64,000 bases of DNA from Deltaproteobacteria bacterium (GCA_029210625.1 JARGFU010000016.1:62001-126000), one strand, 5' to 3'. Positions 3,523 to 45,031 are shown, counted from the first letter of the stretch. Numbers and translations are program-made. The notes: generated from the sequence alone by a model not told the origin.

Positions 3523-3535
3523 CGGCGCGCCTCTT

Positions 3536-4993
<1,458 letters not shown>

Positions 4994-5004
4994 GCAGCCT
5001 GGGA

Positions 5005-5745: not shown

Positions 5746-5795
5746 CGGGGTGGGCCCTTGTACCACGGTGGCAGACGGGGGGATCATCGAAGGAC

Positions 5796-26127: not shown

Positions 26128-26140
26128 GGGTACAGCCTTC

Positions 26141-26365: not shown

Positions 26366-26394
26366 GATGAGTTGCTCCTTCCCCTGTGGGGAGA

Positions 26395-27351: not shown

Positions 27352-27352
27352 T

Positions 27353-28018: not shown

Positions 28019-28074
28019 CAAAAACTCTAGTTATAACGAGCGCTTAGGTACTGCTTCCGCGTCGGCGGGCCGCA

Positions 28075-28104
28075 TACGTAGCATGGGGCCGCGCAAACGG
28101 TCAA
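28075..28104 (-). promoter_or_regulatory. Candidate promoter of the F0 operon
   Basis: On the minus strand TTGACC (28104-28099) is followed after 18 bp by TACGTA (28080-28075). The -35 box is good and the -10 is poor. The same TTGACC -35 appears ahead of gyrA and the cpaF-like gene, which lends some support. The leader would be about 50 bases. Confidence 0.35.
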
Positions 28105-28156
28105 GCGAGGGGGAATCGGGCCCCGGAGGGCCCGGATCCGGCCTTTTCGGGCCCCT

Positions 28157-29446
28157 CTAGGCGAGGGTCTTCATGACCTCCCGGGCGGCCGCGATCGTCG
28201 CGTCGATCGTCGCGTCGTCGTGGGCCAGGGAGACGAAGCCGGCCTCGAACTGGGAGGGGGCCACGTAGACGCCCTTCTCGAGCATGGCGGCGTGCCACTT
28301 GCCGAAGCGCCCGGTGTCGCTCTTGCGGGCATCGTCGCCGTTCAGGACGGGGCCCTCCTGGAAGTAGAAGCCGAACATGGCCCCCACCCGGGCGGTGCAG
28401 ATGGGGATGCCGGCCTCGGCGGCGGCGGCCTCGAGGCCGTCCACGAGGCGGTCGCAGGTCTTGCCGAGCCGCTCGAAGACCCCCGGCTCGGCCAGCTTCT
28501 TCAGGGTGGCGATGCCCGCAGCCATGGCCAGCGGATTCCCGGAGAGGGTGCCGGCCTGGTAGATGGGGCCGGCCGGGGCCATCTGGTCCATCAGGTCGGC
28601 CCGGCCGCCGTAGGCGCCCACCGGCAGGCCGCCGCCGATGACCTTGCCGAAGCAGGTGAGGTCGGGGCGGATGTCGAAGCGGGCCTGGGCGCCGCCGAGG
28701 GCGACCCGGAAGCCCGTCATGACCTCGTCGAAGATGAGGATCGCGCCGTGGGCGTCGCAGAGCTCGCGCAGGCCCTCGAGGAAGCCCTCCACCGGCGGGA
28801 TGCAGCCCATGTTGCCCACGACCGGCTCGAGGATCACGCAGGCGATCTCCTTCCCCTTCTGCTCGAAGAGGGCCTTCGCGGCCGCGAGGTCGTTGTAGGG
28901 GAGGGTGAGGGTGTGCTTCGCGAAGTCGGCGGGCACGCCGGGGGAGTCGGGGAGGCCGAGGGTCTCGACCCCCGAGCCGGCCTTCACCAGCAGGCTGTCC
29001 GCGTGGCCGTGGTAGCAGCCGTCGAACTTCACGATGTCGTCCCGGCCGGTGGCGCCCCGGGCCAGACGCAGGGCGCTCATGGTGGCCTCGGTGCCGCTGT
29101 TCACGAAGCGCACCTTCTCGAGGGAGGGCATCAGCTCGATGACCAGCTCGGCCAGCTCGTTCTCCCGCACGCTGGGCGCGCCGAAGCTCGTCCCCTGCTG
29201 CGCCGCGGCGGTGATGGCCGCGATGACGTCGGGGTCGGCGTGGCCGAGGATGGCCGGGCCCCAGGTGCCGACGTAGTCGATGTAGCTGTTGCCGTCGACG
29301 TCGGTCATCCGGGCGCCGGAGGCGCTGGCGATGACCAGGGGGTTGCCGCCGACGGCCTTGAAGGCGCGCACCGGCGAGTTGACCCCGCCGGGCATCAGCT
29401 GGCGGGCGCGGTCCATGATCTCCTGGCTGCGGCTGTGATCGAGCAA
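28157..29446 (-). CDS. hemL: Glutamate-1-semialdehyde 2,1-aminomutase
   Basis: 429 residues, normal length. This PLP enzyme converts glutamate-1-semialdehyde to 5-aminolevulinate in the C5 pathway of haem synthesis. Visible signatures are [76 protein letters not shown] and the PLP-lysine segment [17 protein letters not shown]. The start is TTG 29446, chosen for the AGGAG seven bases upstream; no closer ATG gives the family N-terminus [15 protein letters not shown]. Haem supply is relevant here, since the window encodes two large multihaem cytochromes, although the gene sits with gyrA. Confidence 0.97.
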
Positions 29447-29455
29447 GGTGGTCTC

Positions 29456-30301
29456 CTAGTGGCCGGGGCGTTGATAGGACTCCTCGTCGGGGACGAGGGC
29501 CTTCTTGCGGGTCTTGAGGCGGGCGATCTTCACCTGCACCGCCCGGGGGTCGGGGTGGGTCTCGAGGGCCCGGATGTAGGCGGCGATGGCCTCGTCGGTC
29601 TTGCCCTGGCGGGCGAGGCAGTTGCCCTCCTCGACCCAGGCGCGGGGGACGAGGATGGAGGAGGCGTGCTCCTCGTGGAGGCGGGAGTAGGCCTTCAGGG
29701 CCTCGTCCAGCTTCTCCTCGGCCTGGAAGGCGCCGCCGATGAGGAAGAGGGCGTCGTCCACGTACTCCGAGTCCTCGTGCTTCTCGAGGAGGACCTGGGC
29801 CTCGGTGCGGGCCTGGGTCCAGTTGCCCTGGGCGTAGTAGCCCAGCGCCACCTCGTGCTGCCAGCGAGGGGCCTCCGGGGAGTCGGTGTCGGTGGCGATC
29901 AGCGCCTGGTAGAGGCCGACCGAGGCCGGCCGGTCGTCGAGGTCCTCGACGTGGATCCGGGCCATCCGCTCCCGGGCCCGCAGGGCCTCGGGGGAGGTCG
30001 GGTAGTCCTCGACCAGGGTCTGGTAGTAGCGCAGGGCCACCCGGGGCTGGTGGAGGTAGAGGTGGGTGAGCCGGCCGGCGGTCCAGAGAGCCTCGATGCG
30101 CAGGGGCCGGGCCTCGGCGCTGTTGTCTCCGCGGAGCGACTCGAGGGCCTTCTCGACCTGCGACATGGCGGCCTCGTGCCTCCCCTTGAAGGAGAGGTCG
30201 TCCGCCCGATCGAGGCACTGCCTCGCCTCGGGCTCACAGGAGGCCCCGCCGACAGCGAGCACGAGGAGGAGGGTCAGGCTGACGAGCCCGGCGCGCTTCA
30301 C
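29456..30301 (-). CDS. TPR-containing lipoprotein (BamD/YbgF-like)
   Basis: 281 residues. The lipoprotein signal ends AVGGASCEP (Cys about 22). The rest is helical with tetratricopeptide-like repeats ([60 protein letters not shown]). It is probably an envelope scaffold protein that binds partners; BamD and CpoB have this layout, but specific BamD residues were not checked. GTG 30301 overlaps the gyrA stop (GTGA), and the gene ends nine bases before the hemL TTG, so gyrA, this gene and hemL form one operon. Confidence 0.78.
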
Positions 30302-32856
30302 GCGCCCTCCTCCTCGCCGCCCTCGTCGCCCTCGTCGTCCATCTCGGTCTCCACCACCGGGGCCACGCCGGTGACCTTCTCCTCCCGGGAGCCCAGGGAG
30401 ATCAGCCGCACCCCCTGGGTGTTGCGGCCGATGATCGAGATGTCGGCGGTGGCCATGCGGATCAGCATGCCGGTGTTGGTGATGAGGATGATCTCGGCGT
30501 CCTCCTTCACCTGCACGGCGCCCACCACCGGGCCGTTCCGGTCGGTGGTCTTGATGGTGATGATGCCCTTCCCGCCCCGGGACTGCGTCCGGTACTCGTC
30601 CAGGGCGGTGCGCTTGCCGTAGCCGTTCTCGGTGATCGAGAGGATGGGGTCGTCCGAGCGCAGCACCTCGGCGCTGACCACCTGGTCTCCCGTGCCCAGG
30701 GCGATGGCGCGGACCCCGCGGGCGGTGCGGCCCATGGGGCGCACCTGATCCTCGGAGAAGCGGATGGAGAGCCCCCCGGCGGTGGTCACCAGCATCTCGC
30801 TCTTGCCGTCGGAGATCTGGGCGGTGATGAGGTCGTCGCCCTCGTCGATCGTCAGGGCGATGATGCCGCCCTGCCGCTGGTTGGCGAAGGCCGAGAGCGC
30901 CGTCTTCTTCACGTAGCCGCCGTGGGTGAACATGGCGATGAAGTGCTCGTCGTCGAAGCTCTCGATGGGCAGCACGGTGCGCAGCCGCTCGTCGCCGCGC
31001 ATGGAGATGAGGTTCACCACCGGCTTGCCCCGGGCGGCCCGGCTGGCCGCGGGGATCTCGTGGACCTTCAGCCAGTGGCAGCGGCCGTGGGAGGTGAAGA
31101 GCAAGAGCTGGGTGTGGGTCGAGGCGACGATCAGCTGCTCGACGAAGTCCTCTTGCTTCACCGAGGCGCCGGTCTTGCCGCGCCCGCCCCGCTTCTGGGA
31201 GCGGTACTCGTCCAGCGGGATGCGCTTGATGTAGCCGGCGTGGCTGACGGTGACGACCATGTCCTCGTCGGCGATCAGGTCCTCGATGGCGATCTCGCCC
31301 ACGTCGGCCTTGATCTGGGTGCGGCGCTCGTCGCCGTACTGCTCGCGGACCACCTTCAGCTCGCCGATGATCTCGTTGAGGAGGAGGCGGTCGTGGGCCA
31401 GGATCTCCTTGAGGCGGACGATCTCGTCGCGCAGGGTGAGCATCTCCGCCTCGAGCTTCTCGCGCTCGAGGCCGGTGAGGCGGGAGAGGCGCATCTCGAG
31501 GATGGCCTGGGCCTGGATGGCGTCGAGCTGGAAGATGCCGCTCGCGATGGCGGCGTCGATCTGGGCGTCGTGGGCGTCGACCAGCTGGGCGAAGCGGGGC
31601 TCGAAGCCCTTGAACTTCTCGGCGACCAGGAGGGCCTTGGCCTCGTCGGGGTCCCTCGACCCGCGGATGATCTCCACGACGCGGTCGATGTGGTCGGTGG
31701 CGACCACCAGGCCGGCCAGGACGTGGAAGCGGGCCTCGGCCTTCTCCAGCTCGAAGCGGCAGCGCCGGGTGACCACCTCGCGGCGGTGGTCGATGAAGCG
31801 CGCGATGCACTCCTTGAGGGTGAGCACCTTCGGCTGGCCCTGATCGATGGCCAGCATGGTGATGCCGAAGGTGGTCTGGAGCTGGGTCTGCTTGAAGAGG
31901 TTGTTGCGGACCACGTCGGCCATCGCGTCGCGCTTGAGCTCGATGACGATGCGCATGCCGTCGCGATCGGACTCGTCGCGAAGATCGGAGATGCCGGTGA
32001 GCTTCTTGTCGCGGACCAGCTCGGCGATCTTCTCGATGAGCTTGGCCTTGTTGACGTAGTAGGGGATCTCGGTGACCACGATCCGCTCGCGGTCCTCCTT
32101 CTTGCCGTAGATCTCCACCTCGGTCTTGGCGCGCACCTTTACGCTGCCCCGGCCGGTCTCGTAGGCCTGCCGGGCGCCGGAGACGCCCAGGAGGATGCCG
32201 CCGGTGGGGAAGTCCGGGCCCTTCACGAAGCGCATCAGGTCGGTCACCGACGCGTCCGGGTGATCGATGAGGTGCATCGTGGCGTCGATCACCTCCCGCA
32301 TGTTGTGGGGCGGGATGTTCGTCGCCATGCCGACCGCGATGCCCGACGCGCCGTTCACCAGCAGGTTCGGGAAGCGGGCCGGGAGGATCAGCGGCTCCTC
32401 GAGGGTCTCGTCGTAGTTCGGGCCGAAGTCGACGGTCTTCTTGTCGATGTCGGCGAGCAGGTCGCTCGCCAGCCGCTCCATGCGCACCTCGGTGTACCGC
32501 ATGGCCGCCGCGCGATCACCGTCGATCGAGCCGAAGTTGCCCTGCCCGTCGACCAGCGGGTAGCGCAGGGAGAAGTCCTGGGCGAGGCGCACCAGGGTGT
32601 CGTAGACCGCCTGGTCGCCGTGGGGGTGATACTTGCCGATGACGTCGCCGACGATGCGCGCCGACTTCTTGTAGGCCCGGCCGGCGGTGTTGCCGAGGTC
32701 CTGCATGGCGAAGAGGACCCGGCGGTGCACGGGCTTGAGGCCGTCGCGCACGTCCGGCAGGGCGCGGCCGATGATCACGGACATGGAGTAGTCGAGATAC
32801 GACCGCCGCATCTCGTCTTCGATGTTCACCGGGCGGGTGCTCGAGCCCTCGGTCAT
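30298..32856 (-). CDS. gyrA: DNA gyrase subunit A
   Basis: 852 residues. The breakage-reunion domain carries [30 protein letters not shown] and the catalytic Tyr in [11 protein letters not shown]. The C-terminal six-bladed DNA-wrapping domain includes a GyrA box (QKRGGRG at about nt 31200) that distinguishes gyrase from topoisomerase IV. It negatively supercoils DNA with GyrB, which is not in the window. In the quinolone-determining region the sequence is [11 protein letters not shown]: Gln at the E. coli Ser83 position, with Asp87 kept. ATG 32856 has GGAG upstream. A Glu/Asp-rich tail ends the protein. Confidence 0.97.
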
Positions 32857-32969
32857 CTTGGTGCTTCTCCTTCGGTGGGCCCATCGGCGGGCCGGCCCCG
32901 TGCTCGCCGCTGGCGGCGGATCCACGGGGCGCGGGCACCCCGGATCGGGGTGCCTCGAGAGGACGCGGA

Positions 32970-32998
32970 ATAATGCCCCGCCGGGGGCCTCCGGTCAA
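32970..32998 (-). promoter_or_regulatory. Putative sigma70-type promoter of gyrA
   Basis: Minus strand TTGACC (32998-32993), a 17-bp spacer, then CATTAT (32975-32970), which matches four of six consensus positions in the -10 box. Spacing is ideal. It would drive the gyrA-TPR lipoprotein-hemL operon. Confidence 0.6.
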
Positions 32999-33168
32999 CG
33001 CCTATGTGACCAATATTCAAGGGCTTTTTGCCGATTTCGGCCCTCTCCAACCCCCCGGAATCGGGGGGGCTTCCCCGGGCCTCGAAAAACTGTGGGGGAT
33101 CGCGGAGAAGGTGGCGTGGATCGCGGCCTTGGCCGGCTCAGGCAAACGTGATTTCAGGTACTTGCGGG

Positions 33169-33184
33169 TGGCACGGGGCCTGCT
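33169..33184 (+). promoter_or_regulatory. Near-consensus sigma54 (RpoN) promoter
   Basis: TGGCACGGGGCCTGCT matches the consensus TGGCACGRNNNTTGCW at all but one defined position. The invariant GG (33170-33171) and GC (33182-33183) are separated by exactly 10 bases. The start of transcription would fall near 33195, about 47 bases before the ATG at 33242. It needs an enhancer-binding activator; one FHA-type activator is encoded at 3536-4993, though nothing ties the two together. Confidence 0.75.
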
Positions 33185-33241
33185 TTGATCCGGCTTCGAA
33201 TCCATCCTCGCGCCCCGCAAGAGCGCCCAAGGGAGACCGCC

Positions 33242-35227
33242 ATGAAGATCGCCAAGCTGACCCTCGCCGCCGCCGCCGCGACCCTCCTCCTCGCCCCCGG
33301 CTGCAAGAACCTGGATCCGCCCTACGCCCTCGAGTCCGCGGACACCTGCGAGAAGCTGGAGAAGGAGATCAAGCTCCAGGCCCAGACCCAGATCCGCCTC
33401 AACTACGGCTGGATCAGCGGGCTGAACTTCATCAGCTGGGGGAAGGGCGGCGGGGGCTTCCTCGGCGGGATGGCCGAGGCCGACATGGCGGCCGGCGCCG
33501 CCCCCCGCAGCAGCAACAGCTCCTCCACCCCCCGCCTGCACTCGGACACCAACGTGCAGGTCGAGGGCGTGGACGAGGCCGACCTGGTCGAGACCGACGG
33601 CACCTACCTCTACGCCCTGGCCGGTGACCACCTGATCATCACCGAGGCGTGGCCGGCCGCCAGCGCCCACGAGGTCGGCCGCCTGAAGATCGAGGGCCAG
33701 GTGCAGGGCATCTACCTGCGCGAGGACGAGGACCGGGTGGCGGTGCTCTCCCAGCTCTGGAGCGCCCCGCAGCCCATCGCCGGCGGCAGCGCGCAGCTCT
33801 CCGGCGCCACCAACTCCGACATCACCAAGGTGACCCTGGTGAGCGTCGCCAACAAGGCCGCCCCGGTGGTCGAGCGCGAGACCTACCTCGAGGGCTTCCT
33901 CCACGACTCCCGGGTGGTGGGCGATCGCCTCTTCGTCGTCTCCTACGTCGATCTCTACTTCGACGACCTGATGTGGGCCGACTCCCAGGCCGAGGCCATG
34001 CGCCTCTCCAAGAACAGCACCCTGGACCAGTGGATGCCCAAGCGGGCGGACAACGTCCTGCGGGGCGGCAGCTGGAGCTCCGAGGAGACCGACATCTGCA
34101 ACTGCGCCGACGTGAACGTCTCCATCCGCCAGAGCGGCACCCACATGATGACCATCTCCTCCTTCGACGTGACCGACCCGACCTCCACGGTCGACGCCAC
34201 CTCGGTCCTCGGCTCGGTGGAGCAGGTCTACGCCAACGGCCGCAGCCTCTACATCTTCTCCGAGGAGCACGCGGACGGCCCCTGGCGCTCCTTCGACGGG
34301 CTGCGCGAGACCATCATCCACCGCTTCGACATCCCCGAGAACGGCACCAAGCCGACCTACGACGTCTCGGGCAAGGTGCCCGGCACCCTCACCAACCAGG
34401 GGGCCGCCGCCGCCCAGTTCTCCTCCGACGAGTTCGACGGCAAGCTGCGCATCGTCACCAACCAGATGGACGACGACTGGAACACCTCGGTCGGCCTCTA
34501 CGTCCTCGAGCCCGGCACCAACCAGCTGCGGATGGTCGGCATGGTCCCCGAGCTGGTGGAGAACGAGGAGGTCTACGCCGTGCGCTTCATCGGCGAGAAG
34601 GCCTACGTGGTGACCTTCCGCCAGATCGATCCCCTCTTCATCGTCGACCTCACCGACCCGCGCCGTCCCGAGGTGAAGGGTGAGCTGGAGATCCCCGGCT
34701 TCTCGAACTACCTCCACCCCATCGACGCGGACCACCTGCTGGGCATCGGCCTCGATGGCAGCGTCCAGGTCTCCCTCTTCGACGTCAGCGACGACATGAA
34801 CCCCGTGCGCGACTCCCAGCTGGTCCTCCCGAACACCGGCTGGTCCGAGGCCCAGAACGATCACCACGCCTTCAACTTCTTCGCGCCCCACGACGCCCTC
34901 TTCGTGCCGGTCTCCGACTGGGGCAGCAACGGCTCGAAGGTCAGCGTGATCCACGCCAAGGTGGACGAGCCCCTGGCCGAGCTCGGCCGGGTGAGCAACG
35001 CCACCCTGCGGACCGCCGCCGGCTTCGCCTCCAGCCAGTACGACTGGTGCGTCGACCAGCGCCGCTCGGTGGTCATCGAGAACGCCCTCTACGCCGTGAG
35101 CGGCGCGGGCATCACGGTCACCGAGGTGCGCAACCCCACCGCCGAGCTGGCCACCGTGCCCTTCGCCGGCATCGATCCCTGCGCCGACACCATCTACTAT
35201 GGCGGCGGCTGGGACGAGGGCTGGTAG
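33242..35227 (+). CDS. Secreted lipoprotein with beta-propeller domain (PF09826-type)
   Basis: About 661 residues. The signal peptide and lipobox are clear (ATLLLAPGCKN, Cys20). The bulk resembles the secreted beta-propeller family (COG4880): NVQVEGVDEADLVETDGTYLYAL is its hallmark opening, followed by LIITEAWPA, DRLFVVSYVDLYFDD, VYAVRFIGEKAYVVTFRQIDPLFIVDL and NYLHPIDADHLLGIG. Several Cys residues (ICNCADVN, DWCVD) may form disulphides outside the cell. The function of the family is unknown. ATG 33242 is chosen because GGGAG precedes it and the signal peptide starts there. It is preceded by a sigma54-type promoter and lies 84 bp before the porin-cytochrome genes, so shared regulation is possible. 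Confidence 0.82.
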   Translation: MKIAKLTLAAAAATLLLAPGCKNLDPPYALESADTCEKLEKEIKLQAQTQIRLNYGWISGLNFISWGKGGGGFLGGMAEADMAAGAAPRSSNSSSTPRLHSDTNVQVEGVDEADLVETDGTYLYALAGDHLIITEAWPAASAHEVGRLKIEGQVQGIYLREDEDRVAVLSQLWSAPQPIAGGSAQLSGATNSDITKVTLVSVANKAAPVVERETYLEGFLHDSRVVGDRLFVVSYVDLYFDDLMWADSQAEAMRLSKNSTLDQWMPKRADNVLRGGSWSSEETDICNCADVNVSIRQSGTHMMTISSFDVTDPTSTVDATSVLGSVEQVYANGRSLYIFSEEHADGPWRSFDGLRETIIHRFDIPENGTKPTYDVSGKVPGTLTNQGAAAAQFSSDEFDGKLRIVTNQMDDDWNTSVGLYVLEPGTNQLRMVGMVPELVENEEVYAVRFIGEKAYVVTFRQIDPLFIVDLTDPRRPEVKGELEIPGFSNYLHPIDADHLLGIGLDGSVQVSLFDVSDDMNPVRDSQLVLPNTGWSEAQNDHHAFNFFAPHDALFVPVSDWGSNGSKVSVIHAKVDEPLAELGRVSNATLRTAAGFASSQYDWCVDQRRSVVIENALYAVSGAGITVTEVRNPTAELATVPFAGIDPCADTIYYGGGWDEGW

Positions 35228-35311
35228 GCCCGGACCTGACGCTCCGGGGTGGGGGAGCTATCTGTGCGAGGGGCGATTGGCCCCTCCACCTCGAGCCCCC
35301 GCACCCCGAAG

Positions 35312-36793
35312 ATGGCCTACTGCTCCCGCTCCCCTCGCAGGCCGCCCGGCATTCCGTCCGGGTGTCTCCTCCTCCTGTTCGCGCTCTGGCCCGGGCTCTC
35401 CCGGGCCGAGGCGCCCGCGGACGAGCCCTCGCCGGCCGCCGCGGAGGAGACGGCCCTGGCCTCGCCCGGGCTGGTCTACTGGCTGACCGCCCGGCAGGGC
35501 TACCGCCTGCGGGACGCGCGCCCCGGCGATGAGGCCGCGGCCGATCCCCTGGCGCCCGTCGCGCCGGCGACCGATCAGGACCTGCACCTCGCCCTCGACG
35601 CCGGCCTCCTGAACGGCGCGGGGACCCTCGGCGCCGACCTGGCCCTGGGGGCCTGGCTGGACGCCGACGGGATCGCCGGCGATCCGGCGCCCCTGGCCTT
35701 CGCCTCGGTGCGGGACGGGGCAGCGGGCCGGGCGGCCAGCCTCTACCTCGCCTCGGTCTTCTACCGCCCCGGCGGCTGGCTGAAGGAGGTGCGGCTCGGC
35801 CGGATGAGCACCGGCTTCGGGACGCGCACCGTCTTCGACGGGGCCTCCCTCTCCCTGCTGCCCCTGCGCGGGCTGCGCAGCCCGGCGCTCGCGCGGCTCG
35901 AGCTCGTCGCCCTCGGCGGCCGCACCGCGCACCTCTACGAGCTCGACGGCGAGCACTTCGAGGACTGGCTCGGCGCGGTGGCCCTGCGCCTGCGGCCCCT
36001 GCGGGATCTGAAGCTCGCCCTGGACTACCGCCTGATGATCGAGGACTCGGCCAGCGCGGGGCTCGACCACGGCTACGGCCTCGAGGCGCAGTGGCGGATC
36101 AGTGACTTCCTCGGCGCCCGGCTCGAGGTGCGGGGGGTCGACGACGCGCTCTCCCGCCTCGCGCTGGCGGGGCGCTACTGGCACGAGGCCCTCGGCTTCG
36201 GGCTCGACGCCCGGATCGATCTGCAGCTCTCGACCCTGGAGGCCCTCAACGAGCGGGACGATCCCCTCTTCGCCATCCTCGGGCCGAGCCACCCCAACCT
36301 GCGCTGGGACCTCGACCTCTTCGAGGAGTTCGAGACCGGCCACGCGGACTACGTCCTCCACCTGGGCTGGCAGGGCCGGGAGCCCCTCGACGGGATCAGC
36401 GCCCCCTTCAACCGCCGCCAGGGCCGGCTCCACCTCACCGGCGACGCGCTCGAGCTGGTGATCCCGGGCCTGCAGGCCTCCCTCTCCCTCGAGTACCACC
36501 ACGACGGGGGCGACCTGGGCGAGGGCCTGCTGACCCTCGGCGGCGCCGCGGGCTACCGCTCCGAGGCGCTGCGCGGCCTCGGGGGCGAGCTCGGCAGCTA
36601 CTACCAGCGCTTCAAGTACGACTACTACGCGGACGTCGAGGAGCGGCAGGACGTGCGGACCTTCTTCGTCGCGGCCTTCGTCGACGCGCTCCCCTGGCTG
36701 GAGGTCCGCCTCCGCTACACCCTGGAGCACTTCGACCGCACCGCCCACTCCTTCCACTTCCTCCTCACCCAGCGCCTCGAGGGGGGACGGTGA
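35312..36793 (+). CDS. Outer-membrane beta-barrel protein, candidate porin of a porin-cytochrome conduit
   Basis: 493 residues with a signal peptide (LLLLFALWPGLSRAEA). The mature chain alternates polar and hydrophobic residues in many short strands, for example LKLALDYRLMIEDSA, LGARLEVRGVD and ASLSLEYHHDGG. It ends in a strand-like C-terminal segment (FHFLLTQRLEGGR). There are no Cys haem motifs. Size and fold fit the roughly 20-strand barrels that sheath cytochromes in Geobacter-type conduits. Its TGA overlaps the ATG of an 11-haem cytochrome, which overlaps in turn a lipoprotein multihaem cytochrome, and this arrangement is the main reason for the functional call. ATG 35312 is used because it immediately precedes the signal peptide. 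Confidence 0.75.
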   Translation: MAYCSRSPRRPPGIPSGCLLLLFALWPGLSRAEAPADEPSPAAAEETALASPGLVYWLTARQGYRLRDARPGDEAAADPLAPVAPATDQDLHLALDAGLLNGAGTLGADLALGAWLDADGIAGDPAPLAFASVRDGAAGRAASLYLASVFYRPGGWLKEVRLGRMSTGFGTRTVFDGASLSLLPLRGLRSPALARLELVALGGRTAHLYELDGEHFEDWLGAVALRLRPLRDLKLALDYRLMIEDSASAGLDHGYGLEAQWRISDFLGARLEVRGVDDALSRLALAGRYWHEALGFGLDARIDLQLSTLEALNERDDPLFAILGPSHPNLRWDLDLFEEFETGHADYVLHLGWQGREPLDGISAPFNRRQGRLHLTGDALELVIPGLQASLSLEYHHDGGDLGEGLLTLGGAAGYRSEALRGLGGELGSYYQRFKYDYYADVEERQDVRTFFVAAFVDALPWLEVRLRYTLEHFDRTAHSFHFLLTQRLEGGR

Positions 36794-37629
36794 TGCGAAC
36801 GACGCTCCTCCGGGCCCTCCTCCTGGCCCTCCTCCTCTCCGCCGGCCCCGGCCGGGCCGAGGAGGGGCCGGTCTTCTCCCACGCCGACCACATCGGCCGC
36901 GAGCCCGATGGGCCCTGTACGGCCTGCCACGCCGTCGAGGCGCCGAAGCCCACCCTGAAGGCGGAGCGCTGCATCTTCTGCCACGACGAGGACGACACCG
37001 CCCCCACGCGCTATCGCCTCCTCGACCGGGCGAAGCCGCTCCCCCTCGCGCTCCCCCACGAGCGCCACGCGAAGGAGGGCGACTGCCGGACCTGCCACGC
37101 CCGGACCGTCCGCGATCAGCTGGTGCAGGGCGAGGCCTTCATGCCCTCGTCGCTCTGCTTCGACTGCCACCAGGAGCGCCAGGTCGTCGCCGCCACCGAC
37201 CGCTGCGAGAGCTGCCACGGCGAGGGGAAGCGCCTGACGCCTCCGGCCGGTCACCGCGCGTCCAGCTGGATGCGGCGCCACGGGGAGGCCTCTCGCTGGA
37301 CCGGCGGGATCCACGGCGAGGACTGCGCCCTCTGCCACCGGGCCGACGCCTGCCAGACCTGCCATCAGCAGCGGGCGCCCGCCGATCACAACGGCCTCTG
37401 GCGCCTGCGCGGCCACGGCCGGGTGGCCGCCTGGGATCGGGAGGGCTGCAAGACCTGCCACGAGTCGGGGCAGTGCGTCGCCTGCCACCGCAGCACCCAG
37501 CCGCTCAACCACCAGGGCGCCTGGACCTCGCTCCACGGCGCCGTGGCCGGGGACCGGGAGAACCCCTCCTGCCTGACCTGCCACCGGCCGACCGCCTGCG
37601 TCGCCTGCCACGCGGGAGCCACGCCATGA
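36793..37629 (+). CDS. Periplasmic multihaem c-type cytochrome with 11 CXXCH sites
   Basis: About 278 residues with a cleavable signal (ALLLALLLSAGPGRA) and no lipobox. I count 11 CXXCH motifs: CTACH, CIFCH, CRTCH, CFDCH, CESCH, CALCH, CQTCH, CKTCH, CVACH, CLTCH and CVACH. That is one haem per 23 or so mature residues, a dense nanowire-like packing. Extra His residues (HADH, HERH, DHNG) can supply distal ligands. It should sit on the periplasmic side of the barrel encoded just upstream and pass electrons through it. ATG 36793 overlaps the barrel stop; a GTG one codon earlier is also possible. It overlaps the next cytochrome gene by four bases (ATGA). Confidence 0.93.
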   Translation: MRTTLLRALLLALLLSAGPGRAEEGPVFSHADHIGREPDGPCTACHAVEAPKPTLKAERCIFCHDEDDTAPTRYRLLDRAKPLPLALPHERHAKEGDCRTCHARTVRDQLVQGEAFMPSSLCFDCHQERQVVAATDRCESCHGEGKRLTPPAGHRASSWMRRHGEASRWTGGIHGEDCALCHRADACQTCHQQRAPADHNGLWRLRGHGRVAAWDREGCKTCHESGQCVACHRSTQPLNHQGAWTSLHGAVAGDRENPSCLTCHRPTACVACHAGATP

Positions 37630-40358
37630 GCGCGAAGATCACGAAGATCACGTGGGGTCCGCTGGGCGTGGGGCTCCTCCTCTTGCTGCTCTGCGCGGCC
37701 TGTGAGGGCGCGCCCCTCGCGGACGGGGTGCCCGACGATCTGAGCTGCTCCACCTGCCACGGGGGCCCCGAGAGCAGCGCGCCCCCCTCCGCCCTCTCCG
37801 GGGAGACCGCCACCGAGGCCATCGGGGTGGGCGCCCACCAGGCCCACCTCCAGGACGGCGCCATCCGGGCGGCCCTCCCTTGCGAGAGCTGCCACGTGGT
37901 GCCCGCCGAGATCGGCGCGGCCGGCCACGTCGATCCCCTCCCGGCCGAGGTGAGCTTCGAGGCCGGCCTGGACAAGGCGACCGGTCAGGGCACCTGGGAC
38001 CGGACCACCGCCACCTGCAGCGAGGTCTACTGCCACGGCGTGACCCTCGCGGGGGGGACCACCAAGACCCCGGTCTGGACCCTCGTGGACGGCTCCCAGA
38101 GCCAGTGCGGCAGCTGCCACGGCAACCCCCCGGTGACGCCCACCCACCCGGCGGCGAGCCAGTGCCACCTCTGCCACCGCGGGACGGTGGCCGCCGACGG
38201 CAGCATCGACGTCGCCGGCGGGATGCACATCGACGGCAAGCTCGACGTCGACGGCACCGCCTGCGACTCCTGCCACGGCGGGAGCGGCGAGCCCGCGCCG
38301 CCGCTGGACCTCGCGGGGAACACCGAGACCACCGCGCCCGGGGTCGGCGCCCACCGCGAGCACCTCGCCGCCTCGAGCTGGCACCGCACGATGATCTGCG
38401 ACGACTGCCACCTCGTGCCCGGGCAGATCGACGCGGCCGGGCACCTCGACACGCCGGCCCCGGCGGAGCTGACCTGGGCGGGGATCGCGATCGCCGACGG
38501 CGCGGCGCCCACCTACGATCGGACGACCGGCGCCTGCGCCGACGCCTACTGCCACGGCGGCACCCTGAAGCTCGGGCCGGGCACGGTGCCGGCCCCGGTC
38601 TGGACCGTGGTGGACGACAGCCAGGATGCCTGCGGCGCCTGCCACGGGGTGCCGCCGGGCGGCAGCCACCCCCCCGTCTCGCCCACCGAGTGCGGCAGCT
38701 GCCACCCCTGGAGCGGGCTGACCCCCGACGATCCGGCCACCCACATCGACGGCAAGGTCGACCTCGCCTCCATGGCCTGCGACGCCTGCCACGGCGGCGG
38801 CGGGGTCGCCGCGCCGCCCCTCGATCTCTCGGGCAACGTCGCGAAGAGCGAGCCCGGGGTCGGCGCCCACCGGGAGCACCTGGCCTCCTCGGTCTGGCAC
38901 CGCACGATGGCCTGCGACGACTGCCACCTCGTGCCGCAGGCCGTCGGCGATCCGGGGCACCTCGACACCCCCCCGCCGGCCGAGCTCACCTGGGCCGGGA
39001 TCGCCGTGGCCGGGGGCGCGGCGCCCGTCTACGATCCGGTGACCGGCCGCTGCAGCGACACCTACTGCCACGGCGCCACCCTCCCCACCGGCCCGGGCAC
39101 CGTGCCCGCGCCGACCTGGACCACGGTGGACGGAAGCCAGGACGCCTGCGGCACCTGTCACGGCTTGCCGCCGGGCGGGGTGCATCCCACCCTCCAGAGC
39201 TTCGAGTGCGGCCCCTGCCACACCTTCAACGGCCTGAACCCGGCGGATCCCACGACCCACGTCGACGGCAAGATCGACGTCCTCTACTGCGACGGCTGCC
39301 ACGGCTTCCCCCCGGCGACCGGCGCGCACCCGCTCCACGTGGGCGACGCGGACGCCACGAGCTGGGCGAGCTACGGCGGCCTGCTCCACGCCGCCGACGT
39401 GCGGGCCGGCGCGGCGACCTACCTCTTCGACTGCGGCCAGTGCCACCCGCGCGACGTGGCGCGGCACGCCGACGGCACCGTCGACGTGGAGGTCGGCTCG
39501 ACCGGTGTCCCCGGGGGCACCCTGCGCTCCCTCTCGACGCCGACGGCGAGCTACACCGGCGGGGTCTGCCGCGAGGTCTACTGCCACTCGACCGGCCAGG
39601 AGACCCCGGCCTACGTCGACTCGCCGCCCTGGACCGGCGGCTTCACCGGCCCGCGCTGCGCGAGCTGCCACGAGAACCCACCCTCCTACGCCAGCGGCGG
39701 CGCGGGCACGGCGACGGCGAACACCCACCTCCAGATCGCCGACGACGGCGTCGAGTACGGGCACTTCGGGGGCCTGCCGGGCCCCTGGCACACGAGCTAC
39801 CACGGCGGCGGCAGCCCGGGCGACGCGGCCTCGCCGCTGACCTGCCAGACCTGCCACTACGACACGGTCGATCCCGCGGCGGTGGGGCCCGGCGGCTTCT
39901 ACTGGCTGAACACCTCCGGCAGCTACGAGCGCGGCTCGGGCCACTGGATGGACTGCACCCGCTGCCACACCGGCGCCGGCGGCGCGCCGGCGCAGGGGGT
40001 CGGAGGCGTCCAGCCGGCGGCCCACGTCAACGGCGTGCGCGACGTGGTCTTCGAGCAGCGCACCTCGATCCCCGCGGGCACCCCGGGGATCCCCGCGGCA
40101 CCCAACCGGCCGACCTACCCGACCTGGGTCACCGCCGCCCCCAGCGCCGCGGATCGGCCGCCGGGCTCGGTCGTCGACGGGATCACCTGGTCGGTGGACC
40201 TGACCCTCTCGACCTACGATCCCGCCGACAAGAGCTGCCAGAACGTCGGCTGCCACATCCTCCAGTCCTTCGGGACCGGCATGGCCCAGTACGAGCCGCT
40301 GCAGTGGGGGGTGACGCCCGTCGGCTGGTCGACCTGCAACGCCTGCCACCAGAACTGA
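37626..40358 (+). CDS. Outer-membrane lipoprotein multihaem cytochrome with CXXCH and CXXXXCH sites
   Basis: 910 residues. The lipobox is LLCAACEG, so the mature protein is lipid-anchored and probably on the outer face. I count 18 CXXCH and five CXXXXCH motifs (CSEVYCH, CADAYCH, CSDTYCH, CREVYCH, CQNVGCH), 23 candidate haem sites. The alternation of the two types matches the Geobacter CxxxxCH...CXXCH domain family. Three internal modules are near-copies (GVGAHREHLA..WHRTM.CDDCHLVP... LDTP.PAELTWAGIA), so the protein grew by duplication. It would be the terminal outer cytochrome of the conduit. ATG 37626 overlaps the preceding TGA. Haem attachment at CX4CH needs suitable cytochrome c maturation genes, which are not in the window. 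Confidence 0.93.
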   Translation: MSAKITKITWGPLGVGLLLLLLCAACEGAPLADGVPDDLSCSTCHGGPESSAPPSALSGETATEAIGVGAHQAHLQDGAIRAALPCESCHVVPAEIGAAGHVDPLPAEVSFEAGLDKATGQGTWDRTTATCSEVYCHGVTLAGGTTKTPVWTLVDGSQSQCGSCHGNPPVTPTHPAASQCHLCHRGTVAADGSIDVAGGMHIDGKLDVDGTACDSCHGGSGEPAPPLDLAGNTETTAPGVGAHREHLAASSWHRTMICDDCHLVPGQIDAAGHLDTPAPAELTWAGIAIADGAAPTYDRTTGACADAYCHGGTLKLGPGTVPAPVWTVVDDSQDACGACHGVPPGGSHPPVSPTECGSCHPWSGLTPDDPATHIDGKVDLASMACDACHGGGGVAAPPLDLSGNVAKSEPGVGAHREHLASSVWHRTMACDDCHLVPQAVGDPGHLDTPPPAELTWAGIAVAGGAAPVYDPVTGRCSDTYCHGATLPTGPGTVPAPTWTTVDGSQDACGTCHGLPPGGVHPTLQSFECGPCHTFNGLNPADPTTHVDGKIDVLYCDGCHGFPPATGAHPLHVGDADATSWASYGGLLHAADVRAGAATYLFDCGQCHPRDVARHADGTVDVEVGSTGVPGGTLRSLSTPTASYTGGVCREVYCHSTGQETPAYVDSPPWTGGFTGPRCASCHENPPSYASGGAGTATANTHLQIADDGVEYGHFGGLPGPWHTSYHGGGSPGDAASPLTCQTCHYDTVDPAAVGPGGFYWLNTSGSYERGSGHWMDCTRCHTGAGGAPAQGVGGVQPAAHVNGVRDVVFEQRTSIPAGTPGIPAAPNRPTYPTWVTAAPSAADRPPGSVVDGITWSVDLTLSTYDPADKSCQNVGCHILQSFGTGMAQYEPLQWGVTPVGWSTCNACHQN

Positions 40359-40419
40359 AGGCCTGGAATAGCCCTCGGGGTGGCCGGTTCCAGCGACCGG
40401 CACTAGAAGTGGTGCACCC

Positions 40420-40956
40420 ATGACCGCACTGGCTCGCCTCATCCCCGCCTCGCTGGGCCTCCTCCTCCTGGGGTCACTCCTGGGGCTGGGCAACCACGCG
40501 CTGCGCTTCGAGGGGCTCTTCCCCGCGCCCGCCGAGGCGGCCGCCGCCTGCGGTGAGGGGACGACGGGGGCGCCCGTGCTCCAGAGCGCCGAGGAGGCCG
40601 GCACCCTCTGCGCCGGCGGCCACATCCTCATCCTCGACGTCCGTGACGCCGAGACCTTCGCCCGGGGGCACGTCGCCGGGGCGGTGCACCTGCCCTGCTC
40701 GGTGGGGAAGATCGAGGCGGAGATCGAGGGCCAGCTGATGGGCTCGGAGACGGTCCTGGTCTACGGCGCCGACACCGAGAGCGCCCTGCCGGTGGCCTCC
40801 TCCCTGCTGCTGCGGGGCATCCACGACGTGCGGGTGATCGACGGCGGCTACCCGGCCTGGGAGGCCGCGAGCCTCGCCTGCGCCTCCGGTCCCTGCGCGG
40901 CCTGTGGCGCGGGCCACGAGGGCGGGCCCAGCCATGAGGGGCACGACCATGAGTAG
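40420..40956 (+). CDS. Membrane-anchored rhodanese-like protein lacking the catalytic cysteine
   Basis: 178 residues. An N-terminal hydrophobic segment (IPASLGLLLLGSLLGLG) anchors or exports it. The rhodanese domain (about 50-155) has LILDVRDAETFARGHVAGAVHLP, but the active-site loop reads VYGADTESA where active enzymes have a Cys first (CxxGxRS). Both the Cys and the Arg are absent, so thiosulphate sulphurtransferase activity is unlikely. The C-terminus has clustered Cys and His (CASGPCAACGAGHEGG ... HEGHDHE) that could bind metal. It follows the large cytochrome gene by 61 bp. A rhodanese-like lipoprotein is also part of one Geobacter conduit cluster (extH), as I recall. Confidence 0.82.
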   Translation: MTALARLIPASLGLLLLGSLLGLGNHALRFEGLFPAPAEAAAACGEGTTGAPVLQSAEEAGTLCAGGHILILDVRDAETFARGHVAGAVHLPCSVGKIEAEIEGQLMGSETVLVYGADTESALPVASSLLLRGIHDVRVIDGGYPAWEAASLACASGPCAACGAGHEGGPSHEGHDHE

Positions 40957-41395
40957 GTCCCTCCCCGAGCGCGGCGCGGTCTGGGTCCTGAAGCTCTTCC
41001 TGGCCGTCGTCTGGCTCTGGGCCGGGATCGCCAAGCTGGGGGATCCGGCGGGCTTCGCCGAGGAGATCGCCAACTACCAGCTGCTGCCCTGGGTGGCGCC
41101 CTACGTCGCCTCGATCCTGCCCGGCGTGGAGATCGTCCTGGGGCTGGCCCTGCTCCTGCCCCCCTGGACCCGGATGGCCCGGGCCTCGGCCCTGCTCACC
41201 ACCGGGGCCATGGCCGGCTTCACCTTCGCCGTGACCACCGTGGTGGCCCGGGGCATCGACATCTCCTGCGGCTGCTTCGGCACCGGCACCGGGCCGGTCA
41301 CCGGCCTGACCGTCCTGCGGGACGTGGCGCTGACCGCGGCGGCCGCGGCGGCGCTCTGGCTCTCCCAGCGGGCGGCGCGAGAGCGCGAGGGCTAG
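40949..41395 (+). CDS. DoxX/MauE-type integral membrane protein
   Basis: 148 residues with four membrane helices (VLKLFLAVVWLWAGIAKL, YVASILPGVEIVLGLALLL, ASALLTTGAMAGFTFAV and the last near LRDVALTAAAAAALWL). It contains a conserved cysteine pair, DISCGCFGTG, typical of MauE/DoxX-like proteins linked to thiol redox or disulphide formation. The opening helix ends GIAKLGDPAGFAEEI, a DoxX-family pattern. ATG 40949 overlaps the rhodanese gene by eight bases and has GAGGGG upstream; an in-frame ATG at 40934 is an alternative. The pair with the rhodanese suggests a redox or sulphur-handling accessory to the cytochromes (inference). Its stop overlaps the stop of the convergent TPR gene on a CTAG palindrome. 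Confidence 0.8.
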   Translation: MSRSLPERGAVWVLKLFLAVVWLWAGIAKLGDPAGFAEEIANYQLLPWVAPYVASILPGVEIVLGLALLLPPWTRMARASALLTTGAMAGFTFAVTTVVARGIDISCGCFGTGTGPVTGLTVLRDVALTAAAAAALWLSQRAAREREG

Positions 41396-41979
41396 CCCAG
41401 CTTCTTGAGCTGGGCGATGGCCTGGCGGCCGACCTCGCCGTGGGGGTCGAGATCGCGGGCCTTGCGGAAGGCCTCCCGGGCCCCCTCCTTCTCGCCCCGC
41501 AGCTTCTTGCAGACCCCCACCTGGAGGTGGGCGCTGGGCAGGTCGCGGTCGATGGCGAGCGCCCGCTGGAACTCCTCGAGGGCCTCGTCCACGTCGCCGT
41601 CGAGGAGGTGCTCCTGTCCCCGGGCCAGGTGGGGCTCGGCGTCGGAGATCAGCTCGACGTCGAAGAGGGCGCGCCCGCCGACGTTCATCACCAGGGCCCG
41701 CAGGAGGCCCGTGTACCAGAAGGTGGCGGCCTCGGCGGCGAGGAAGGCCGCCATGGGCAGGTCGGGCAGGAGCGGCTTGCCCCGGAACTTGAAGCGCACC
41801 TTGGTGTAGACGCCCTTCTTGGCCCAGTAGGTGACCTCGCCGCGGACCTTCTCCAGCACCTGATCGAGGCGCTCGAGCTGCCGATCGATCTCGATGACGA
41901 TCGGCTCGGTGGGCAGCGCCTCCTTCGGATCGGCCTCTTCTTCGATCTCGGGGATCTTGGGATCGTCGCCTTCGCTCAT
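41392..41979 (-). CDS. TPR-repeat protein
   Basis: 195 residues, no signal peptide. The acidic N-terminus (residues 1-28) is followed by a helical region and then two tetratricopeptide-like units: HLLDGDVDEALEEFQRALAIDRDLPSAH and LRGEKEGAREAFRKARDLDPHG. These mediate protein-protein contact. GGAGG lies ahead of ATG 41979. It is divergent from the CpaF-type gene, and a partnership is possible but unproven. The middle segment (FKFRGKPLLPDLPMAAFLAAEAATF) could be a small additional domain. Confidence 0.7.
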   Translation of the reverse strand: MSEGDDPKIPEIEEEADPKEALPTEPIVIEIDRQLERLDQVLEKVRGEVTYWAKKGVYTKVRFKFRGKPLLPDLPMAAFLAAEAATFWYTGLLRALVMNVGGRALFDVELISDAEPHLARGQEHLLDGDVDEALEEFQRALAIDRDLPSAHLQVGVCKKLRGEKEGAREAFRKARDLDPHGEVGRQAIAQLKKLG

Positions 41980-42038
41980 GATTCGCCTCCAGACTCTAGC
42001 ACGGGGTGGGGGAGGGCGGATCGCGTCCGGGTGCCCCG

Positions 42039-42068
42039 TTGACCGGCATCGAGCGCCTGTCCTAGCGT
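42039..42068 (+). promoter_or_regulatory. Putative sigma70-type promoter of the CpaF-like gene
   Basis: TTGACC at 42039-42044, an 18-bp spacer and TAGCGT at 42063-42068. Transcription should begin at or within a base or two of the ATG at 42076, implying a leaderless or nearly leaderless mRNA. No ribosome binding site is present upstream, which agrees. Confidence 0.5.
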
Positions 42069-42075
42069 CTTCGGC

Positions 42076-43773
42076 ATGGGAATGTACGAGGAATCACTAC
42101 GCCACTTCCTGAAGCCCATCGGGGAGTTCCTGGACGACCCCAAGGTCTCCGAGATCATGATCAACGGTCCCGAGGAGATCTGGATCGAGAAGGGGGGCAA
42201 CCTCACCCTCACCCAGGCCAAGTTCACCAACGAGGGACTCGAGGCCGCCGCCCGGAACATGGCGCAGTTCGTCGGCCGGATCCTCGACGACGAGCGGCCC
42301 CGCCTCGACGCCCGGCTGCCGGACGGCTCGCGGATCCACATCGTGATGCCGCCGATCGCCCGCAAGGGCTGCACCATCGCCATCCGGAAGTTCTTCCCGG
42401 ACAAGCTGACGGTGGCGAACCTCGTGCAGTTCGGCTCGATGTCGCCGGCCATGGCGAACTTCATCGACGCCTGCGTGCAGCTGAAGGAGAACGTCATCGT
42501 CTCGGGGGGTACCGGCTCCGGCAAGACCACCATGCTCAACTGCGTGGCGGCCTACATCCACGATGAAGAACGCATCATCACCATCGAGGATTCCGCCGAG
42601 CTGCAGATGAACCAGGAGCACCTCGTGCCCTTCGAGTCGCGGCCGCCGGACAAGTTCGGCAAGGGCAAGGTGGACATGGGCGATCTGCTCCAGTCCTCCC
42701 TGCGGCTGCGCCCCGACCGGATCGTCGTCGGCGAGGTCCGCGGCGGCGAGGCCTTCCACCTGATGCAGGCGATGAACACCGGCCACGGCGGCTCCCTGGC
42801 CACCGTCCACGCCAACACGCCCACCGACACCCTGCGGCGCCTCGAGTCCCTCTGCCTCCAGAGCGGCATCGACCTGCCGATGGTGGCGGTCCGCGCCCAG
42901 GTGGCCTCGGCCATCAACATCACGCTCTGCTGCGCCCGCCTCTCCGATGGCTCTCGGCGCACCACCCACATCTCCGAGGTGCTGCCCCTCAACGAGAAGG
43001 GCGACTACCGCACCCAGGACATCTTCGTCTTCACCCAGACCCACAAGGACGCCGACGGGAAGATCCACGGCTACCACTCGCCCACCGGGCTGATCCCGAC
43101 CTTCTTCGAGCAGCTCAAGGCCTTCGGCTTCGGCTACATGGACGAGGAGTTCTTCGATCCGGCGACCTACGGTCAGGTGCCGCCCCCGAGCTTCGTGGGC
43201 GCGGGCTTCAAGCCCCGCTGGTCCCCCAGCCTCAAGCACCGCGAGGAGGGGCTGCCCGATCCCGAGCACAACCCCGTCGCCGACGCGCTGCGCGAGAAGG
43301 GGAAGACGCGCGAGATCATCGTGCGCACCGGCATGGAGGGCAAGGAGCCGCCCAAGCCGATGGCGCCCCCGAAGGCCGAGGCCACCGACCTGGGCGACGA
43401 CGCGGACGCGGCCCCGGCGGCGGCCACCCCGCCTCCACCCGAGGACGAGTACGACGAGCCCTCCACCCGGATCGGCGCGGCGCCGGCGGCGGTGAAGGCC
43501 CAGGCCCGGGGCGACGAGCTCGGCGCGGCCGTGCCGGCCACCGCCGAGAAGGAGGAGTCCACCGACCCCGGCGCCGACGACGCGCCGGTCGGCCTCTCCG
43601 ACGAGGAGGCGGCCATCGCCGCGGCCCTCGCCGCGGCCGAGGCGGCCGAACAGCCCTCGATCCAGCTCGCCGACGACTTCGCCGAGGAGGCGAAGGCCTA
43701 CGAGGATCAATCCTCCAATGGGCCGGAGGGGCGGCCCCGGCGCAGGCGCGGGGGGACGATCGGCCGCAAGTAG
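42076..43773 (+). CDS. CpaF/TadA-type secretion ATPase with long acidic C-terminal tail
   Basis: 565 residues. The first 370 form a CpaF-family hexameric ATPase that powers Tad/Flp pilus or type II-like secretion: VSEIMINGPEEIWIEKGG, Walker A GGTGSGKTT (about 144-152), the acidic IEDSAELQM box, LRPDRIVVGEVRGGEAFHLMQAMNTGHGG (Walker B region) and HANTPTDTLRRLE. The C-terminal 190 residues are Ala/Glu/Asp/Pro-rich and probably disordered. No pilin, TadB/C or secretin gene is adjacent, so the ATPase is an orphan here; myxobacteria have several such solitary CpaF paralogues. The gene ends before a convergent repeat-containing intergenic region. Confidence 0.92.
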   Translation: MGMYEESLRHFLKPIGEFLDDPKVSEIMINGPEEIWIEKGGNLTLTQAKFTNEGLEAAARNMAQFVGRILDDERPRLDARLPDGSRIHIVMPPIARKGCTIAIRKFFPDKLTVANLVQFGSMSPAMANFIDACVQLKENVIVSGGTGSGKTTMLNCVAAYIHDEERIITIEDSAELQMNQEHLVPFESRPPDKFGKGKVDMGDLLQSSLRLRPDRIVVGEVRGGEAFHLMQAMNTGHGGSLATVHANTPTDTLRRLESLCLQSGIDLPMVAVRAQVASAINITLCCARLSDGSRRTTHISEVLPLNEKGDYRTQDIFVFTQTHKDADGKIHGYHSPTGLIPTFFEQLKAFGFGYMDEEFFDPATYGQVPPPSFVGAGFKPRWSPSLKHREEGLPDPEHNPVADALREKGKTREIIVRTGMEGKEPPKPMAPPKAEATDLGDDADAAPAAATPPPPEDEYDEPSTRIGAAPAAVKAQARGDELGAAVPATAEKEESTDPGADDAPVGLSDEEAAIAAALAAAEAAEQPSIQLADDFAEEAKAYEDQSSNGPEGRPRRRRGGTIGRK

Positions 43774-43850
43774 GCTGCGAGCTACGAGCTACGAGCTACG
43801 AGCTCGGGCAGCGCTGTGCGCCCGGTTGCTCGCAGCTCACAGCTCATAGC
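43774..43850. repeat. Heptamer tandem repeats forming an inverted, hairpin-like array
   Basis: Left arm: GCTGCGA then three GCTACGA units (43774-43801) running into GCTCGGG. Right arm: GCTCGCA, GCTCACA, GCTCATA (43828-43848). The reverse complement of the right arm aligns with 43781-43803 over 23 bases with four differences, all of which become G-U pairs in a minus-strand transcript. The loop contains a further CGGGC/GCCCG stem. It lies between convergent genes and could terminate transcripts from either side. Confidence 0.85.
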
Positions 43851-43903
43851 CAGGAAGTCAAGCCGCGGCCGCTCACCGAGCGTCCGTGGAGCCCGGCTGC
43901 TTG

Positions 43904-45031
43904 CTACTGCGAGGCGCGGACCTCTGCACACGAGATCCCCTCATCCGGCGCGCAGTTCTTCCCGATGACGCAGCCGCCGATCCCGTCGATGTTCACGCAG
44001 GAGAGCTGCCCGCGGCACTGATCCCCGCCGAGCTGGCAGGGCGCGCGGGTCATCCCGCAGGAGCGGGTGGTGGTGTCGCAGGTGTCCTGGGGGCAGTCGG
44101 TGTCCTGCACGCAGGAGCAGAAGCCCGTGCCCGAGGCGCCGCCCTCGTGGCCGATGCAGCGGCCGGCGCACTGGCCGATGGTCTCGCCCGCGGCGATGGC
44201 GCAGCGGCCGCCGGGGCACTCGTCGTCGGTGGTGCAGCTGGCGCCGGTGGGGGCGCAGTCCTCGTCCCGGCCGCAGAGGCTCTGGGTGAGGATCACCACG
44301 AAGTGGCAGTCGAAGCCGTTGGGGCAGGGCTGATCGTTGCTGCAGTCGACCCCGCAGAAGGAGGCCCGCCCGCCCGGGACCGAGGTGTCGACCAGGCAGT
44401 AGTTGCCCGGGTCGTCGCAGAGGGAGAGGCCCGAGCCCGCCGAGAGCTGGCACTGCTCGCAGTAGGGGCCGCGGGTGTCGTCGACGCAGACCGTGTCCTC
44501 CTCGACGGCGTCGTACTCGCAGAGCTGCACGTAGTCGCAGAAGCTCTGGTCGTCGCAGAGGCCGGCCTTGCACCGGCCCACGTCGCACTCGGGGTCGTCC
44601 ACCGGGCAGCGGCAGACCTGGGCGAGCGGGCAGTCGCCGTTGACCCGGCAGCCCGGCTCGCAGCGGAAGGTCACCAGGTTGCAGAGGGTGCCGATGGGGC
44701 AGTGGATGTCCGAGGTGCAGTGGCTCTCCTCGATGCACTGGTTCTGGGCCGTGTCGCAGAAGTTCTCGCTCGGGCACTCGGCGTTGGTCTCGCAGCCCAC
44801 CCGCGGCTGGCAGGTGCCCGCCTGGTTGCAGAAGGCGTCCGAGCCGCAGGCGGCGTCGGTGGTGCAGAGGCAGACCTTCGGCTTGAACTTGTCGGAGCAG
44901 ACGAAGCCGTCGCCGTTCTCGGCCACGCACTGGGCGTCGTCGACGCAGCCGCCGACCAGGTCGGGGTCGTTGGGGCAGCCGGCCGAGAGGAGGAGCAGGC
45001 CGAGGCAGGCGGTGAGGATCGAGCGCATCAT
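43904..45031 (-). CDS. Cys-rich surface lipoprotein (Dickkopf-N-like repeats)
   Basis: 375 residues. The lipobox is clear (LGLLLLSAGCPN). The mature protein is packed with short disulphide-type modules of the form C..D..C......C (GCVDDAQCV, ACGSDAFCNQAGTCQ, ECPSENFCDTAQNQCI, DCPQDTCDTTTRSCG), as seen in many myxobacterial surface proteins. They presumably form small disulphide-stabilised knots that bind ligands or other surface proteins. It is the last gene of a five-gene operon; ATG 45031 overlaps the preceding TGA (ATGATG). Function unknown. Confidence 0.8.
   Translation of the reverse strand: MMRSILTACLGLLLLSAGCPNDPDLVGGCVDDAQCVAENGDGFVCSDKFKPKVCLCTTDAACGSDAFCNQAGTCQPRVGCETNAECPSENFCDTAQNQCIEESHCTSDIHCPIGTLCNLVTFRCEPGCRVNGDCPLAQVCRCPVDDPECDVGRCKAGLCDDQSFCDYVQLCEYDAVEEDTVCVDDTRGPYCEQCQLSAGSGLSLCDDPGNYCLVDTSVPGGRASFCGVDCSNDQPCPNGFDCHFVVILTQSLCGRDEDCAPTGASCTTDDECPGGRCAIAAGETIGQCAGRCIGHEGGASGTGFCSCVQDTDCPQDTCDTTTRSCGMTRAPCQLGGDQCRGQLSCVNIDGIGGCVIGKNCAPDEGISCAEVRASQ

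Follow-up and report, generated by a model that had tools for sequence, protein, structure and literature searches.

A probable porin-cytochrome electron conduit with a barrel outside the Pfam and NCBIfam families in a Myxococcota genome

Gene organization of the locus

The window analyzed here, a 64,000-nucleotide stretch (JARGFU010000016.1:62001-126000), is part of contig 16 of a Deltaproteobacteria bacterium genome (GCA_029210625.1; 6.1 Mb, 64 contigs), and its host is taken as a member of Myxococcota belonging to the same class as Anaeromyxobacter. Three consecutive genes on the plus strand, with overlaps of 4 bases between neighbors, encode an exported, predicted β-barrel that lacks heme motifs, an exported cytochrome with 11 CXXCH motifs, and a lipoprotein cytochrome with 23 heme motifs (Table 1), and in all likelihood this locus encodes a trans-outer-membrane electron conduit. 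A first-pass annotation made from the DNA alone had described these overlapping genes and a Myxococcota-like host; open reading frame (ORF) and motif counts agree with the gene description, and the assignment of the host is likewise supported. Alternative starts are present at GTG 35249 for the barrel gene and at ATG 36793 for the 11-heme cytochrome gene.

Table 1. Genes of the putative conduit locus and its surroundings, with coordinates counted from the first nucleotide of the window
Gene	Position	Strand	Description
Barrel	35312-36793	+	493 aa, 22 predicted strands, 0 CXXCH, signal-like N-terminus; predicted conduit sheath
11-heme c-type cytochrome	36790-37629	+	279 aa from GTG 36790; exported; predicted wire in barrel
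Surface lipoprotein cytochrome (putative)	37626-40358	+	910 aa, lipobox, 23 heme motifs
Rhodanese-like	40420-40956	+	Membrane-anchored; PF00581, 5e-15; downstream in same run
MauE/DoxX-family	40949-41395 (about)	+	Membrane protein; PF07291, 6.5e-30; CGCFG motif; downstream in same run
β-Propeller lipoprotein	33185-35227	+	Exported; PF09826, 6.7e-121

The barrel protein

The product of the first gene is predicted to be an integral outer-membrane protein with transmembrane β-strands. Its AlphaFold2 model, based on 15 aligned sequences, is a barrel of 22 strands (pLDDT 79.7, pTM 0.74), which falls within the range of about 18–26 strands anticipated by the first-pass annotation. In a Foldseek comparison with the PDB, the model matched outer-membrane barrels with TM-scores by query length of only 0.27–0.52 (50 matches listed), and these values therefore support the fold class but no specific relative. 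Solute porins and other barrels with transport roles rank best among the listed matches, which would suit an ordinary solute porin located by chance beside multiheme genes, with the cytochromes serving periplasmic respiration. Sequence searches of the PDB revealed no solved structure related to the barrel, and no family in the Pfam and NCBIfam libraries fits the barrel or its relatives. Barrels gave matches to RhaB_D2 of Pfam (E 0.055) and to GSU2204 of NCBIfam (E 0.0053–0.0083, 47 residues in the member shown), both of which lie far under the cut-off and were discarded.

The multiheme cytochromes

The density of heme motifs in both cytochromes is far from that of their shuffled sequences, in which CXXCH occurred 0.14 times on average and 2–3 times at most (2000 shuffles). 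The 11-heme protein has c7/c3-type Pfam matches, and PDB matches of its profile include MtrC and a chain of 6r2q, as is general for multiheme proteins. It contains 22 His residues, 11 within CXXCH motifs and 11 elsewhere. His31, His34, His90, His93, His155, His175, His200, His209, His241, and His249 are invariant across nine relatives; His164 is not among these invariant residues and is at least 90% conserved in a 15-sequence alignment. Because 11 CXXCH motifs are accompanied by exactly 11 other conserved His residues, every heme could be bis-His ligated, and such ligation would fit electron transfer over catalysis.

Outer-membrane reductase modules that include barrels, such as those of the Dms type, are known, and the cytochromes could by analogy constitute an outer-membrane reductase rather than a wire. 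Such an enzyme is extremely improbable here, since bis-His ligation of all 11 hemes would leave no open site, and Pfam and NCBIfam searches of the triad detected neither a molybdenum or copper domain nor a catalytic domain of another kind.

The third gene product, with a lipobox ending at Cys26, is predicted to be an outer-membrane lipoprotein with redox cofactors, which would be exposed at the cell surface. Its 23 motifs comprise 18 CXXCH and 5 CX4CH, where heme attachment at CX4CH, as at the CX3CH sites mentioned below, is an assumption. The protein consists of three repeats of ~172 residues, a degenerate fourth repeat, and a C-terminal part; each ~172-residue repeat contains four CXXCH and one CX4CH, and the repeats are 46–68% identical. 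It matches the CxxxxCH/CxxCH domain named after Geobacter (TIGR01904, 7.5e-55; PF09698, 4.8e-18).

The five-heme repeat of this protein also occurs in a giant lipoprotein ORF of the same genome (contig 22, stretch 26000-45000; 2804-11881, minus strand), whose 3,026 residues include 14 tandem copies. In 13 of the 14 copies, CX3CH stands in place of CX4CH, and the tally for the giant lipoprotein is 67 CXXCH, 1 CX4CH, and 14 CX3CH, or ~82 motifs. A further ORF of 3,951 residues on contig 50 (1914-13766, plus strand) possesses 46 CXXCH and 12 CX4CH and is followed by genes of which one appears ResB-like, judged by its start.

Relatives and conservation of gene order

Relatives of the barrel were found in 10 of 195 genomes of its own phylum, including that of the window, by a single-sequence search at E ≤ 0.001, and in 9 of 195 by a profile at 1e-5. 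One of the ten was a marginal 84-residue match (L010/L019, E 7.8e-4) that has no multiheme neighbor and was lost with the profile. With the single barrel as query, the genome collection gave no match, and the loci outside the phylum were reached with the 11-heme alignment. Barrel relatives thereby came to light in two further bacterial groups, G195 and G197, which appear to represent phyla other than that of the host (29 of 68 genomes in one group, 9 of 284 in the other). The barrel family of the window and the G195 barrels are related, with a profile probability of 99.7 and an E value of 2.9e-25.

In all 38 relative loci with a readable next gene, the gene directly 3′ of that for the barrel has the same orientation and encodes a homologous multiheme protein. 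These are eight Myxococcota loci (L011-L018), L042, L048, L049, two pairs in L053, six G197-group loci (L085-L090, of which one is truncated by a contig end), and 19 of 20 fetched loci of the G195 group. The count leaves out L082 and L091, which are cut off too soon to be read, the duplicates L052 and L084 (of L064 and L042, respectively), and L092, whose weak barrel match also has an adjacent multiheme ORF. Where complete, the multiheme proteins encoded after the barrel gene carry 10 to 20 CXXCH motifs. This constant adjacency, the presence of a single copy each of the barrel and 11-heme genes in the genome of the window, and the lipoprotein nature of the third gene product argue against a solute porin placed beside the cytochromes by chance, which is highly unlikely despite the Foldseek matches described above.

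A homologue of the window's surface cytochrome is encoded beside or near the barrel pair in all eight Myxococcota loci, in L048 and L049, and in three loci of the G197 group. In L013, the order is barrel, 11-heme protein, surface-cytochrome homologue, and an OmcA/MtrC-like decaheme protein (TIGR03507, 180 bits versus a cut-off of 209.3). Near the L042 pair, a fusion of cytochrome b561 with an 11-CXXCH part and a NapC/NirT-type cytochrome, both candidate quinol oxidases, are encoded together with a ten-CXXCH protein containing immunoglobulin-like domains. The first-pass annotation had named a recurrent five-gene order as a check on its proposal; the triad does recur in relative loci, but the five-gene order does not in those of the same phylum.

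Distances of the barrel and the multiheme protein are correlated (Spearman 0.74, Mantel p ≤ 0.0005; 29 pairs, including that of the window). Correlation is also seen in subgroups, with values of 0.39 (p 0.012) for the Myxococcota-type loci taken together with the G197 group and 0.49 (p 0.001) for the G195 group. This shows that barrel and wire travel together, although correlation does not prove contact between them.

L053, a Kiritimatiellales contig, carries its two barrel-multiheme pairs at 406-2783 and 7658-10425, with 12 and 20 CXXCH, respectively, and ResB and cytochrome c assembly genes lie between the pairs.

Proposed conduit

In the proposed conduit, the three proteins would form one complex, in which the 22-strand barrel may sheathe an extended 11-heme cytochrome inside the outer membrane. 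The bis-His hemes of the latter could carry electrons between the periplasm and the 23-heme surface lipoprotein, and this repetitive lipoprotein, facing outward, may exchange electrons with an extracellular partner. A conduit had been suggested for the three core genes by the first-pass annotation, and that suggestion gains support from the 22-strand model, the heme motifs, the 11 further His residues that are conserved as candidate ligands, the lipobox, and the barrel-wire pairing in 38 of 38 loci across several groups, as well as from the surface-cytochrome homologues, the correlated distances, and the neighboring genes in relatives. The elements of a three-part conduit definition, an exported multiheme cytochrome, a barrel, and a redox lipoprotein (PMC6148476), are all present by prediction.

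Several observations weigh against this assignment. The AlphaFold2 model of the 11-heme protein is confident only in its N-terminal part, with low confidence in the second half (mean pLDDT 58.6), and the C-terminal residue of the barrel is not the canonical aromatic one. In the G195 group, the short flanks read contain no surface-cytochrome homologue; instead, a 6- or 8-CXXCH gene is usually located 5′ of the barrel gene and a 14-CXXCH gene 3′ of it. In addition, co-inheritance alone would also yield correlated barrel and wire distances, and most of the relatives are metagenome assemblies.

Electrons would probably flow outward through the conduit, in respiration of an extracellular acceptor. 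No feature of the locus fixes the direction, and barrel-multiheme pairs such as PioAB and MtoAB have been assigned to Fe(II) oxidation (PMC5566968), so the same conduit could run in reverse, with Fe(II), a mineral, another cell, or some other extracellular donor supplying the electrons. Such reversal is rather unlikely, as the OmcA/MtrC-like decaheme protein and the b561/multiheme fusion in related loci recall reducer pathways; these neighbors are nevertheless a weak guide to direction, because proteins of this kind can work in both directions.

Comparison with established porin-cytochrome systems

The porin-cytochrome design is familiar from Geobacter and Shewanella. The Geobacter systems OmbB-OmaB-OmcB (PMC4245776) and ExtABCD, ExtEFG, and ExtHIJKL (PMC6148476) likewise combine a barrel, an exported multiheme protein, and a surface lipoprotein cytochrome, except that ExtHIJKL lacks a surface cytochrome and includes a rhodanese lipoprotein (PMC6148476), whereas the window encodes a putative surface cytochrome and a rhodanese-like protein without an early lipobox. 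The heme counts of the window, 11 and 23, differ from the 8 and 12 of OmaB and OmcB, as the first-pass annotation had remarked of Geobacter examples. For Pcc conduits, barrels of 18–22 strands and wires of 5–14 hemes have been reported, and the values of the window, 22 and 11, fit these ranges; identity among Pcc porins spans 8–100%, so that "Pcc" defined by homology is a loose class (PMC4245776).

Within the class of the host, the two-gene, group IV Pcc of Anaeromyxobacter comprises a cytochrome of 338–344 residues with 12–14 hemes and no surface cytochrome (PMC4245776). The pair was recovered here through its cytochrome (L121) as a barrel ORF (at most 455 codons) and a 345-codon gene for a 12-CXXCH protein, and it shares the barrel and multiheme protein with the window but, unlike the window, has no adjacent surface cytochrome gene. 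The two multiheme proteins match with a profile probability of 99.6, a score of the kind driven by heme motifs. In contrast, profile comparison of the two barrels gave no significant match, with a probability of 18.9 across 89 columns and only two sequences on the Anaeromyxobacter side, and profiles of the window barrel did not match a Pcc porin in Anaeromyxobacter genomes. The weak matches that these profiles gave there were short stretches within unrelated genes.

Shewanella MtrCAB and PioAB share the porin-cytochrome principle, but their wire is a decaheme protein as compared with 11 hemes in the window, and MtrB is predicted to have 28 strands (PMC4245776) as compared with 22. The MtrB/PioB family (PF11854) gave no match to the window barrel at E ≤ 0.1 and none in its genome, and is excluded at that sensitivity. 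PCC3 and PCC4 (PMC5566968) and the porin-multiheme cytochrome clusters of Verrucomicrobia (PMC5615132) are barrel-multiheme pairs that were proposed independently, also on the grounds of gene organization rather than homology. Compared by description, PCC3 has barrels of up to 42 strands and a conserved inner-membrane protein (PMC5566968), in contrast to 22 strands and no such protein in the gene run of the window, and the Verrucomicrobia wire has 8 hemes (PMC5615132) rather than 11. The distinct lineage envisaged by the first-pass annotation is supported only with respect to MtrB/PioB and the Anaeromyxobacter Pcc porin, with the Geobacter porins OmbB, ExtB, ExtE, and ExtI lying outside the comparison.

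The design of the putative conduit is a known one, and its barrel family is undescribed in Pfam and NCBIfam; the literature considered was open-access full text. There is about an even chance that the barrel and its 11- to 14-heme wire represent a further, independently evolved lineage. Such a lineage would extend across Myxococcota, Kiritimatiellales, and two or more additional groups and would combine a fixed pair with varied surface cytochromes, the surface repeat having been amplified in the host to a lipoprotein of ~80 motifs. Whether a bacterium can respire minerals and electrodes is decided by porin-cytochrome conduits, and genome screens for them often rely on models of MtrB, OmbB, and Ext porins. 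As the present barrel has no Pfam or NCBIfam model, screens for known porins may miss its carriers; in one group, 29 of 68 genomes have it. If the barrel is unrelated to the Geobacter porins, it would be another instance of this device arising independently, and the constant pairing of barrel and wire would make it well suited to structural study.

Accompanying genes

The rhodanese-like and MauE/DoxX-family genes are genuine by their Pfam matches (the longest ORF of the latter begins at 40904), and their position on the same strand, 61 bases after the lipoprotein gene and overlapping each other, makes co-transcription likely. The first-pass annotation had regarded both as conduit partners, and a true five-gene system in which they serve the conduit by processing sulfur or thiols would be consistent with this arrangement. 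It is distinctly unlikely, however, because no homologue of either protein was found by BLAST at E ≤ 1e-5 among the ORFs of nine stretches from the same phylum, several of which reach well beyond the triad. Moreover, the column of the catalytic Cys in domain 2 of 3tp9 (VCVYC) is Gly in the window protein (VLVYG), and the rhodanese domain encoded near L048 belongs to a different, 363-residue protein on the opposite strand. The two genes are probably co-transcribed passengers rather than conserved conduit partners. The resemblance once drawn to ExtH, the rhodanese lipoprotein of the Geobacter ext loci, proves superficial, as the window protein has neither an early lipobox nor the catalytic Cys and does not accompany the barrel in relatives of the same phylum. 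Its Cys/His-rich tail, which includes CASGPCAACG, may bind metal.

Upstream, the β-propeller lipoprotein gene stops 84 bases before the barrel gene. It was not found adjoining the conduit in the relative loci examined, and its membership in the conduit locus is doubtful.

Elsewhere in the same genome, an NrfD-type membrane protein and a 4Fe-4S protein are encoded near a 13-CXXCH ORF on contig 5 (3664-10792), a set that could possibly act as an inner-membrane quinol module, and on contig 1 (4252-15035) multiheme ORFs are clustered with NHL-repeat lipoproteins.

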